DNA from: Halorubrum aethiopicum
Lineage (GTDB): Archaea > Halobacteriota > Halobacteria > Halobacteriales > Haloferacaceae
Direction: 5' to 3'
DNA: 64,000 bases
Assembly: GCF_001542905.1 (NCBI RefSeq)
Contig: NZ_LOAJ01000001.1
Span: forward strand, 930,001-994,000
Shown here: positions 28,558 through 31,410 of the stretch, piece by piece
How positions within the stretch are numbered: the stretch's first letter is position 1
Layout: the number at the start of each line of letters is the position of its first letter
The notes under the pieces: generated by a model
What the model saw: only the letters and a program-made list of their open reading frames with translations
The model's database searches: none
What the model was told of the DNA's origin: nothing
Translations under genes and position numbers: made by a program

Positions 28558-29175
28558 TTATAGCGACACGTCGGTCTCGATGTCCTCGGTCGCCTCCCGG
28601 AGCCCGTCCTCGCGGGCGGTCGCGGCGTGGGCGTCCTCGATGTCGGCGTCGGTGAGCAGCGCGCGGAACTCGTCGCGGAAGCGGTCGTTCACGCGCGTGG
28701 ACGCGAGGTCGGCGCGGGCGACGGGGACGAACTCGCGAACCGTCTCGGCGTCGGCGTCCAACTCCGCCGCGGCCACCTCGACCGAGCGGTCGGCCGCGAG
28801 CAGGCGCTTCAGCGCCGCGTACTCGAAGGGGGCGTCGCGGTCCGCGTCGGCGACGAGGTGGAGATCGAGGCGGGCGTCGCGAACCGCGCGGGCGTCGACC
28901 GCCGATCCGGAGCCGCCGACGGCGTCGGCGATCGCCGCGTCGTCCTCGCCGTCGAAGAAGCCGGCGACGACGCGTTCGTAGTCGGCGTCGTCGAGGTCGG
29001 AATCGAACCCGTACCGCTCGCGCATCGTCGCGACGAGCGCCGCGACTCGGCCGGCGACCGCGTCGTCGTCGCGGTCGACCAGGCTTCCGGGCGACTCCGC
29101 CTGCCGCTCGGTCACCGTCTCGGAGCCGGTGGCGTCGACGAAGAGGTCCCGGAGCTCCTCGGTCTTCTCGTCCAT
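28558..29175 (-). CDS. Conserved haloarchaeal protein (possibly conditioned-medium-induced protein 4)
   Basis: The 205-residue product starts at MDEKTEELRDLFVDATG. A longer in-frame start exists but its extra residues have no conserved look. It is acidic and mostly helical. Residues 15-60 hold a conserved block (ETVTERQAESPGSLV), and 60-180 has an HTH-like repeat of Ala/Asp-rich helices. I associate the opening segment with a haloarchaeal protein named conditioned-medium-induced protein 4, but this is recollection and the molecular function is unknown. Confidence 0.65.
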   Translation of the reverse strand: MDEKTEELRDLFVDATGSETVTERQAESPGSLVDRDDDAVAGRVAALVATMRERYGFDSDLDDADYERVVAGFFDGEDDAAIADAVGGSGSAVDARAVRDARLDLHLVADADRDAPFEYAALKRLLAADRSVEVAAAELDADAETVREFVPVARADLASTRVNDRFRDEFRALLTDADIEDAHAATAREDGLREATEDIETDVSL

Positions 29176-29269: not shown

Positions 29270-29301
29270 TCGTAAACCAGTACGCTCAAATAGGTTTACG
29301 A
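29270..29301 (+). promoter_or_regulatory. BirA-type biotin operator over the bioY promoter
   Basis: TCGTAAACC (29270-29278) and GGTTTACGA (29293-29301) form a perfect 9-base inverted repeat with a 14-base spacer. This matches the known bacterial and archaeal BirA site, consensus TTGTAAACC-N14/15-GGTTTACAA, closely. The spacer holds a TATA-like TCAAATAG (29285-29292), about 27 bases before the bioY ATG. Bound BirA would therefore block TBP and repress when biotin is plentiful. Confidence 0.85.
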
Positions 29302-29314
29302 GAGAGCACGGCGC

Positions 29315-29896
29315 ATGTCGACCCGAACCGAGTCAGTCGATCTCGTCGGCGACGAGGCGGCGGTCAACCTCGCGCGCGCAGCGCTGTTCGCCGCGCTCGT
29401 CGGCGCGTTCGCGTACGTCACCTTCCCGAACCCCGTCTCGCCCGTCTCCGTGACGCTCCAGGTGCTCGGCGTCTTCCTCGCGGGGATCTACCTCGGTCCG
29501 GCGTGGGGGCCGGCCGCGCTCGTGTGCTACCTGGCCGCGGGCGCGCTCGGCGCGCCGGTGTTCGAGGGCGGCTCCGCGGGCGTCGGCGTCCTCCTCGGCC
29601 AGTCGGCCGGCTACCTCTGGTCGTACCCGCTGGCGGCGGGCGTCGTGGGCGCGGTCGTCCACCGCGGCACCGCCCTCCGCGATCCCGCGTCCGCCGGGAT
29701 CGCGACGCTGATCGCCGCGATGGTCCTCGGGACCGTGGTTATCTACGCGCTCGGGGTCGCCGGCCTCGCGCTCGTCCTCTCGCTCGGCCCTGTCGAGGCG
29801 GTGGCGGTCGGGGCCGTCGCGTTCCTCCCCGCGGAGGCGCTGAAGGTCGCCGCCGCGGTCGGGATCGTCCGCTCGGACGCGATCGCGGCCGCCTGA
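29315..29896 (+). CDS. bioY: Biotin transporter substrate-binding subunit BioY
   Basis: The 193-residue membrane protein has six predicted spans and the BioY signature around TFPNPVSPVSVTLQVLGVFLAG (residues 41-62). BioY is the S component that captures biotin for an ECF-type importer. Its gene heads a tight operon with bioM (4 bases on) and bioN, and is preceded by a BirA-type operator. The whole arrangement makes biotin as substrate very likely. Confidence 0.94.
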   Translation: MSTRTESVDLVGDEAAVNLARAALFAALVGAFAYVTFPNPVSPVSVTLQVLGVFLAGIYLGPAWGPAALVCYLAAGALGAPVFEGGSAGVGVLLGQSAGYLWSYPLAAGVVGAVVHRGTALRDPASAGIATLIAAMVLGTVVIYALGVAGLALVLSLGPVEAVAVGAVAFLPAEALKVAAAVGIVRSDAIAAA

Positions 29897-29899
29897 ACG

Positions 29900-30700
29900 G
29901 TGATCGCCCTCGAGAACGTCACGTGTCGGTACGAGGGTCGCAACCGCGGCGACGACGAGAGCGAAGCCGACGAGCACGGGGCCGATGGCGGGATCGTCGC
30001 CGTCGACGACGTCACCCTCTCGATCCCCGACGGCGAGTTCCTCGTCGTCGCCGGCGCGAACGGGTCGGGCAAGACGACGCTCGTCCGCACGTTCAACGGG
30101 CTCGTGCGGCCGGAGTCGGGGACCGTCTCGGTGAACGGGGTCCCCGTCGAGGAGGACCTCGTCGCCGCGCGCGCCGCGATCGGGATGGTGTTTCAGGACC
30201 CCCGCGACCAGTTGGTGGCCGCCACCGTCGGCGGCGACGTCGCGTTCGGTCCGGAGAACCTCGGGCTGTCTCACGCCGAGATCGACCGGCGAGTCGCGGC
30301 CGCGCTCGACGCGGTGGACATGGCCGGCCGCGAGGGCGACCGGATCGCGACGCTGTCGGGCGGCGAGCGCGAGCGCGTCGCGATCGCCGGCGCGCTCGCG
30401 ATGGAGCCCGACCACCTCGTCTGTGACGAGCCGTTCGCCGGGCTCGACGAGCCCGCGCGCGAGTCGGTCCTCGCCCGCCTGCGCGACCTCCACACGGCGG
30501 GGACCGGCGTCGTCGTCGTCACTCACGACCTCCGGGACGTGCTGGAGTCCGCCGACCGCGTCGTCGGCCTCGCGGACGGGCGGGTCGTCGTCGACGGACC
30601 GCCGGACGCGGCCGTCCCGGACCTCGCCGGACTCGGCGTGCGGATTCCCGAGACGTTCGATGCCCCCGCCGGCGACGCGGGAGGAGCGACCGACCCGTGA
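29900..30700 (+). CDS. bioM: Biotin ECF transporter ATPase BioM
   Basis: The 266-residue ABC ATPase starts at GTG. Walker A GANGSGKTT is at about residues 52-60, the signature LSGGERERV at about 154, Walker B HLVCDEPFAGLD at about 174, and the switch His in VVVTHDLRD. An acidic insertion (about 13-30) sits after the first strand. The ATPase powers BioY-dependent uptake through BioN. Its stop overlaps the bioN start (GTGA), indicating coupled translation. Confidence 0.93.
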   Translation: MIALENVTCRYEGRNRGDDESEADEHGADGGIVAVDDVTLSIPDGEFLVVAGANGSGKTTLVRTFNGLVRPESGTVSVNGVPVEEDLVAARAAIGMVFQDPRDQLVAATVGGDVAFGPENLGLSHAEIDRRVAAALDAVDMAGREGDRIATLSGGERERVAIAGALAMEPDHLVCDEPFAGLDEPARESVLARLRDLHTAGTGVVVVTHDLRDVLESADRVVGLADGRVVVDGPPDAAVPDLAGLGVRIPETFDAPAGDAGGATDP

Positions 30701-31410
30701 CGCTCGCGTACGTTCCGGGCGACTCGCTCGCCCACCGGCTCGACCCCCGGACGAAGCTGCTCGTCCAGGTCGGGTTCGCCGCGGCCGCCTACGCCCACGC
30801 GACCCCGCGAGGGTTGGCGGCGCTCACGCTCCTCGCCGGCGGCTGTCTGTGGGCCGCCGACGGCGACGTCGCCGACCTGTGGACCTACCGGGTCGCATTC
30901 CCCGTCCTCCTCTTCGCCCCCCTCGTCGCCGGCGCGACGCTCGGGTCGCCGTGGTTCCGTCCCGCCCGCGCCGCGACGACGGCGCTCGCGAGCTATCGCG
31001 TCCTCCTCCTGCTCGTCGTCGCCGCGGCCTACGTGCGATCGACGCCGGTTCGCGACTCGCGGGCGGCGATCCAGCGGACCGTGCCGGGGCGGGCCGGCGC
31101 GTTCCTCGGGGCCGGCGTCGCGCTCGTGTTCCGCTTCCTCCCGCTGCTCCGGCGCGACCTGGCGGCCGCGCGCGAGGCGGTTCGCGCCCGCGGCGGCGAC
31201 CGACTCCCCGTCCGCGAGCGGATACGACTGGTCGCGGTCGCCGGGACGAACCGGGCGTTCGGCCGGGCCGACCGGCTGGGGACCGCGCTGGCCGCGCGGT
31301 GTTTCGCGTGGAACCCGACGCTCCCGCGGCTGGCGCTCGGGCCGGCGGACTACCCCGCGCTCGCGCTCGGCGTCGGGCTGCTCGCGGTCGCGGCGTCGGC
31401 CGCGATCTGA
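30697..31410 (+). CDS. bioN: Biotin ECF transporter transmembrane subunit BioN
   Basis: The 237-residue protein has the EcfT/CbiQ fold, with about five membrane spans. The N-terminal HRLDPRTKLLVQVGF is typical, as is the coupling-helix Arg-rich segment EAVRARGGDRLPVRER (about 162-178) that contacts the ATPase. It starts at GTG overlapping bioM. The 137 bases after it have only a short partial repeat of GATCGCGATCCGA and the promoter of the next gene. Confidence 0.92.
   Translation: MTLAYVPGDSLAHRLDPRTKLLVQVGFAAAAYAHATPRGLAALTLLAGGCLWAADGDVADLWTYRVAFPVLLFAPLVAGATLGSPWFRPARAATTALASYRVLLLLVVAAAYVRSTPVRDSRAAIQRTVPGRAGAFLGAGVALVFRFLPLLRRDLAAAREAVRARGGDRLPVRERIRLVAVAGTNRAFGRADRLGTALAARCFAWNPTLPRLALGPADYPALALGVGLLAVAASAAI

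Follow-up and report, generated by a model that had tools for sequence, protein, structure and literature searches.

The closest described counterpart of the locus analyzed here is the BirA biotin regulon. Known BirA proteins act as repressors, and a 2002 study by Rodionov, Mironov, and Gelfand reportedly found, to go by its title, that the BirA regulon and its signal are conserved in Archaea. BirA control with a similar signal in archaea is thus a proposal dating from 2002, and what we add is the detailed placement of the signal and its wide conservation among haloarchaea. A literature search with most subscription papers outside its reach returned none on BirA control, the site itself, the promoter geometry, or the bioB arrangement in haloarchaea. 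The BirA consensus, TTGTAAACC-[N14/15]-GGTTTACAA, and the dual role of BirA are quoted in PMC545781, and archaeal BirA genes occur both with and without the regulatory domain, Halobacterium included (PMC3199775). The bioY-bioM-bioN trio is known in the haloarchaeon Natrialba magadii (PMC3403918). For archaeal core promoters, a review describes LrpA of P. furiosus and MDR1 of A. fulgidus as blocking recruitment of RNA polymerase and Lrs14 as occluding TBP and TFB (PMC2995911). Promoters in haloarchaea have proposed elements of their own, a TATA consensus of TTWT and the element CGAAA, and in Haloferax volcanii 72% of transcripts lack a leader (PMC4983044).

Against this background, we analyzed a stretch of 64,000 nucleotides from Halorubrum aethiopicum, here called the window, in which an inverted repeat precedes a set of biotin transport genes. 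The likeness to the BirA biotin regulon extends to a protein that combines a winged helix with a ligase domain, a nearly identical palindrome, the same spacing, and bioY and bioB as targets. The differences are the haloarchaeal arm, TCGTAAACC instead of TTGTAAACC, and a promoter of the TBP/TFB type, with the TATA element in the spacer at bioY and the start codon in the right arm at bioB. Like LrpA, MDR1, and Lrs14, the regulator of this locus would be of bacterial type and would sterically obstruct an archaeal core promoter; the layout at bioB resembles that of LrpA, and the layout at bioY that of Lrs14. However, those proteins belong to other families and have other ligands, and in the present case both layouts would serve a single regulator. 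We consider it very likely, from the sequence comparisons described below, that the repeat is the operator of this genome's BirA and represses bioYMN by covering the core promoter. If this is true, it provides a class-wide picture of a DNA signal shared with bacteria and fitted to the archaeal TBP/TFB promoter. Haloarchaeal genetics would also gain a compact biotin switch open to experiment, and there would be a naturally occurring example of an operator lost along with the DNA-binding domain.

A predicted BirA operator at the head of bioYMN

The site reads TCGTAAACC AGTACGCTCAAATA GGTTTACGA in full and lies immediately upstream of the bioY start codon, heading bioY-bioM-bioN (Table 1). An earlier note on this DNA had described a perfect 9-base inverted repeat with a 14-base spacer, and both its sequence and its coordinates are exact. 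The statement in the same note that the repeat matches the BirA consensus was slightly generous: it holds for 16 of 18 positions and for the spacing of 14 but does not amount to a full match. Compared with TTGTAAACC-N14/15-GGTTTACAA, the two mismatches form a symmetric T-to-C/A-to-G change, which is the haloarchaeal norm among 122 aligned sites.

Table 1. Features of the bioYMN locus, with positions counted in the window
Feature	Position	Strand	Description
BirA-type operator, predicted	29270..29301		TCGTAAACC-N14-GGTTTACGA; arms 29270-29278 and 29293-29301; exact match, class-wide conservation before bioY
TATA-like TCAAATA in operator spacer	29286..29292	+	About 26 bases upstream of the bioY ATG
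bioY, ECF biotin transporter substrate-binding membrane protein	29315..29896	+	Pfam BioY, E=6e-34
bioM, ECF transporter ATPase	29900..30700	+	Pfam ABC_tran; best NCBIfam TIGR04520/TIGR04521 (ECF ATPase), under curated cut-offs
bioN, ECF transporter transmembrane (CbiQ-type) protein	30697..31410	+	Pfam CbiQ, E=2e-11

The palindrome by itself proves little, because the window is GC-rich and contains many perfect inverted repeats of 9 bases: there are 88 with spacers of 4 to 30 bases, four of them with a spacer of 14. What sets the operator apart is its match to the BirA consensus, its A+T-rich arm, and its conservation. The full operator pattern, with up to three mismatches allowed, has a single match in the window versus 0 in 100 shuffles, and the exact 7-base cores at spacings of 12 to 17 have a single match in the whole genome (3.33 Mb), with 0 for the control. 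A relaxed search of the same genome (spacing 14, 3 mismatches) gave no convincing second target; the other places found were one with 2 mismatches and 26 with 3, compared to 13 for the reversed-pattern control. That the repeat arose by chance and has no function is a reading for which the 88 repeats in the window might speak, but the consensus match, the genome-wide uniqueness, and the class-wide conservation at a constant position speak against it. The last of these already contradicts it, and we assign it a negligible probability.

The genes downstream conform to the ECF biotin transporter BioYMN, with identical gene content and order and no notable difference. The first 4 bases of bioN are shared with the end of bioM, and the BioY protein is 96% identical to that of Halorubrum halodurans. 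The genome contains one biotin carboxylase match, and none of its genes passes the curated cut-off for bioB; it therefore very probably relies on biotin uptake. On the opposite side of the operator, a divergent reading frame of 205 amino acids without a Pfam match occupies positions 28558-29175 of the minus strand. Its start is ~95 bases from the operator, which may have an effect on it.

Conservation of the site across haloarchaea

The earlier note suggested a search for the same site before other biotin genes and regarded a lack of conservation in related bioY promoters as evidence against its reading. The site proves to be conserved before bioY across haloarchaea, and it stands before bioB as well in those haloarchaea that make biotin. 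The exact form GTAAACC-N12-17-GGTTTAC occurs at 60 sites in 56 of 195 haloarchaeal genomes, and the reversed pattern in 3 genomes. All 57 exact sites with a spacing of 14 lie before biotin genes (51 at bioY and 6 at bioB), compared to none of the three with a spacing of 12 or 17.

Where no exact bioY site was present, the site was usually recognizable in a less strict form. We compared 80 further bioY promoters, comprising those of genomes without an exact bioY site and one second bioY from a genome whose first copy has the site. In 72 of them there is a site with a spacing of 14 that matches at 11 or more of 14 positions, versus 0.9% of shuffled promoters; of the eight others, three (L079, L121, and L125) have one with a spacing of 13. 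Among publicly named genomes, 68 of 72 bioY loci carry the site at 11/14 or better.

The exact sites with other spacings were rejected as BirA sites. In G079 and G092 the spacing is 12, and the sites fall within a large, related reading frame. The G052 site, with a spacing of 17, belongs to an extended inverted repeat, GTTGAATAGTAAACC ... GGTTTACTATTCAAC, located between two genes (L154:2941-2987), and has neither the spacing nor the context of a BirA site. In a sample of 296 genomes from the phylum, a few exact sites occur outside the class, at spacings of 13 to 16 (L254, L255, and L266-L272).

BirA and its co-occurrence with the site

A BirA with an N-terminal winged helix, which the earlier note proposed to look for and whose absence, with that of any other biotin regulator, it would have counted against its reading, is indeed encoded in this genome, with HTH_11 and the ligase domain in one protein. 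The gene is the only birA of the genome and lies outside the window (G000:C1:1878679-1879650). Its 323-amino-acid product has Pfam matches to HTH_11 at residues 4-48 (E=4e-10, over the cut-off), BPL_LplA_LipB at 83-215, and BPL_C at 271-316, the ligase and C-terminal domains scoring E=2e-17 (PF03099) and E=5e-16 (PF02237), respectively. Among NCBIfam models, TIGR00121 (birA_ligase) matches over its cut-off with E=2e-50, and TIGR00122 (birA_repr_reg) matches with E=1e-11 and 44 bits, under its cut-off of 70 bits. In the PDB, the solved bifunctional BirA structures from E. coli and S. aureus align from residue 7-14 to ~304-311, winged helix included. Judged by these matches, the protein is a group II biotin protein ligase, with a predicted winged helix, ligase domain, and C-terminal domain. 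The second PF03099 match of the genome appears to be a separate, lipoate-ligase-like protein. The recognition-helix core SRAAVWK, or a close form of it, is present in all 33 haloarchaeal BirA sequences compared, a set picked by a loose form of the same motif, which did not pick up 4 of 37 loci.

Of the 195 haloarchaeal genomes, 185 have a BirA match and 183 a BioY match; the same ten genomes lack both, and none of these ten has an exact spacing-14 site. In genus g17, represented by two genomes (G124 and G174), the BirA match begins only at residue 59 or 35, no winged helix was seen in the frames upstream of the match, and no operator was found within 2.2 kb around bioY. This joint loss, affecting the winged helix of BirA and the operator of bioY, fits what is predicted if BirA reads the site, although it counts as one evolutionary event, because both genomes belong to one genus. 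A counterexample is G136, which has a full-length BirA yet no site within 2.4 kb around bioY; at bioB, the same genome retains an intact site that matches at 13 of 14 positions. Within the genus of the window genome, G108 also speaks against the reading, with a full-length BirA, no BioY, and no exact operator that we could find, which may be due either to another uptake route or to a gap in its 70-contig assembly. As a separate observation, the g17 biotin ligases without a winged helix are encoded at loci L169 and L170, and that of G174 has an acidic, repetitive stretch, EGEPTADEATDGEPTADEATD, at the N terminus, where the winged helix would be.

Recognition of the operator DNA by BirA is a prediction here, and HTH_11-type domains also occur in other metabolite repressors, including NiaR, which scored best in the PDB against the isolated domain. 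Another winged-helix regulator might therefore read the palindrome and sense biotin or a related metabolite. Several observations make this improbable. The arms agree with the BirA consensus from the literature (PMC545781), BirA, BioY, and the sites are jointly absent in ten genomes, and the bioB sites add a second biotin locus as a target. In addition, the only lineage found to have a BirA without the winged helix also lacks the bioY site, in a check that covered the listed BirA matches from part of the genomes. On present comparisons, the operator very probably belongs to the BirA regulon, as a near-consensus palindrome at a biotin-gene promoter in a genome with a winged-helix BirA, a domain whose loss in genus g17 goes together with loss of the site, with the bioY of G136 as an exception.

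Promoter geometry at bioY

The operator occupies a fixed position relative to the bioY gene. In 108 of 122 aligned bioY sites the start codon comes 14 to 16 bases after the 7-base right core, and the other 14 therefore indicate that leadered transcripts or misassigned starts exist. Across the 122 sites, the spacer follows the pattern (G/A)AA-NNN-TTNAA, with the A's at spacer positions 2-3, about -34 relative to the start codon, and TTNAA at positions 7-11, or -30 to -26. Spacer position 8 is T in 87% and position 10 is A in 86% of sites, and A or T reaches 95% at both. These elements should correspond to the expected BRE and TATA place of a leaderless haloarchaeal gene. The spacer in the window does hold such an element, as the earlier note stated: the A/T-rich TCAAATA is present, its A's 25 to 27 bases upstream of the ATG, but the window's own copy, CTCAAATA, is weak, with CTCAA in place of the family's TTNAA and no clear BRE. 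Our reading of the bioY promoter accordingly draws on the 122 orthologous sites and not on the window's own TATA.

An inverted repeat directly before a gene could also act as RNA, forming a hairpin that serves as an attenuator, a riboswitch, or a control of translation, and a 71-base strand does fold with both arms paired. However, the fold is not clearly better than that of shuffled sequences (z, -1.4), changes in the arms are not always compensated, and the spacing is locked at 14. There is no Rfam match at gathering score, the best relevant one being a sub-threshold cobalamin riboswitch (E=0.24), and on the Rfam and folding results we rejected a riboswitch or RNA attenuator. Moreover, the repeat would stay untranscribed, because the TATA element lies in the spacer and haloarchaeal transcripts are mostly leaderless (PMC4983044). 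We therefore regard a role as RNA hairpin as very improbable.

Control by BirA at the level of DNA, which the earlier note had read as a repression switch and which the sequence comparisons support, suggests the following model. With biotin plentiful and the carboxylase acceptor already biotinylated, BirA would retain biotinyl-AMP, its likely co-repressor by analogy with known BirA proteins, and dimerize, placing one winged helix on each arm of the operator. As the arms flank the TATA element, and the 14-base spacer would be the core promoter, the bound dimer should keep TBP and TFB away and thereby turn bioYMN off. When biotin is scarce, BirA would be busy biotinylating the acceptor and would leave the DNA, allowing uptake to resume.

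The predicted operator at bioB

All 49 bioB promoters examined carry the operator at one fixed place, overlapping the start codon, with the right core beginning at the last base of that codon. The TATA-like TTTAT, at -30 to -26, and an AA at -34/-33 all lie upstream of the operator. In biotin-making haloarchaea, the same BirA would also control bioB from this operator just downstream of the TATA element. If bioB transcripts are leaderless, as those of bioY probably are, the operator covers the expected transcription start together with the start codon, and the bound protein would probably obstruct RNA polymerase rather than TBP. A single repressor may thus act at two different steps determined only by operator position, excluding TBP and TFB at bioY and blocking RNA polymerase at bioB, an idea that we favor by a small measure.

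The same geometry bears on whether BirA might instead be an activator or a bifunctional regulator on this site rather than a plain repressor. Known BirA proteins are repressors, and at bioB the operator covers the expected start. Archaeal regulators close to the BRE can recruit TBP, which lends the idea some substance, but the activators described bind upstream of the BRE, while here both arms flank the TATA element (PMC2995911). Activation is in our estimate slightly less probable still than recognition by another winged-helix protein, and we retain repression by BirA as the preferred reading.

The position of the operator at bioB extends into the coding sequence. BioB typically begins with VVYETGN or MVYETGN, because the start codon lies in the right arm of the operator, and the first residues of haloarchaeal BioB thus appear to be constrained by operator DNA. 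The start codon is inside the right arm at loci L143, L144, L146, L147, L148, and L150, as well as at L184-L213 and L238-L253.

The gene that follows bioB at one of these loci (L146:4712-5791) is BioU-like by family search, matching BioU, (S)-8-amino-7-oxononanoate synthase, with E=1e-100 and 336 bits against a curated cut-off of 600 bits. The next gene after bioB in L143, L144, L147, and L150 has an N-terminal sequence similar to that of the L146 gene, and these haloarchaeal genes probably encode a divergent BioU-like enzyme.
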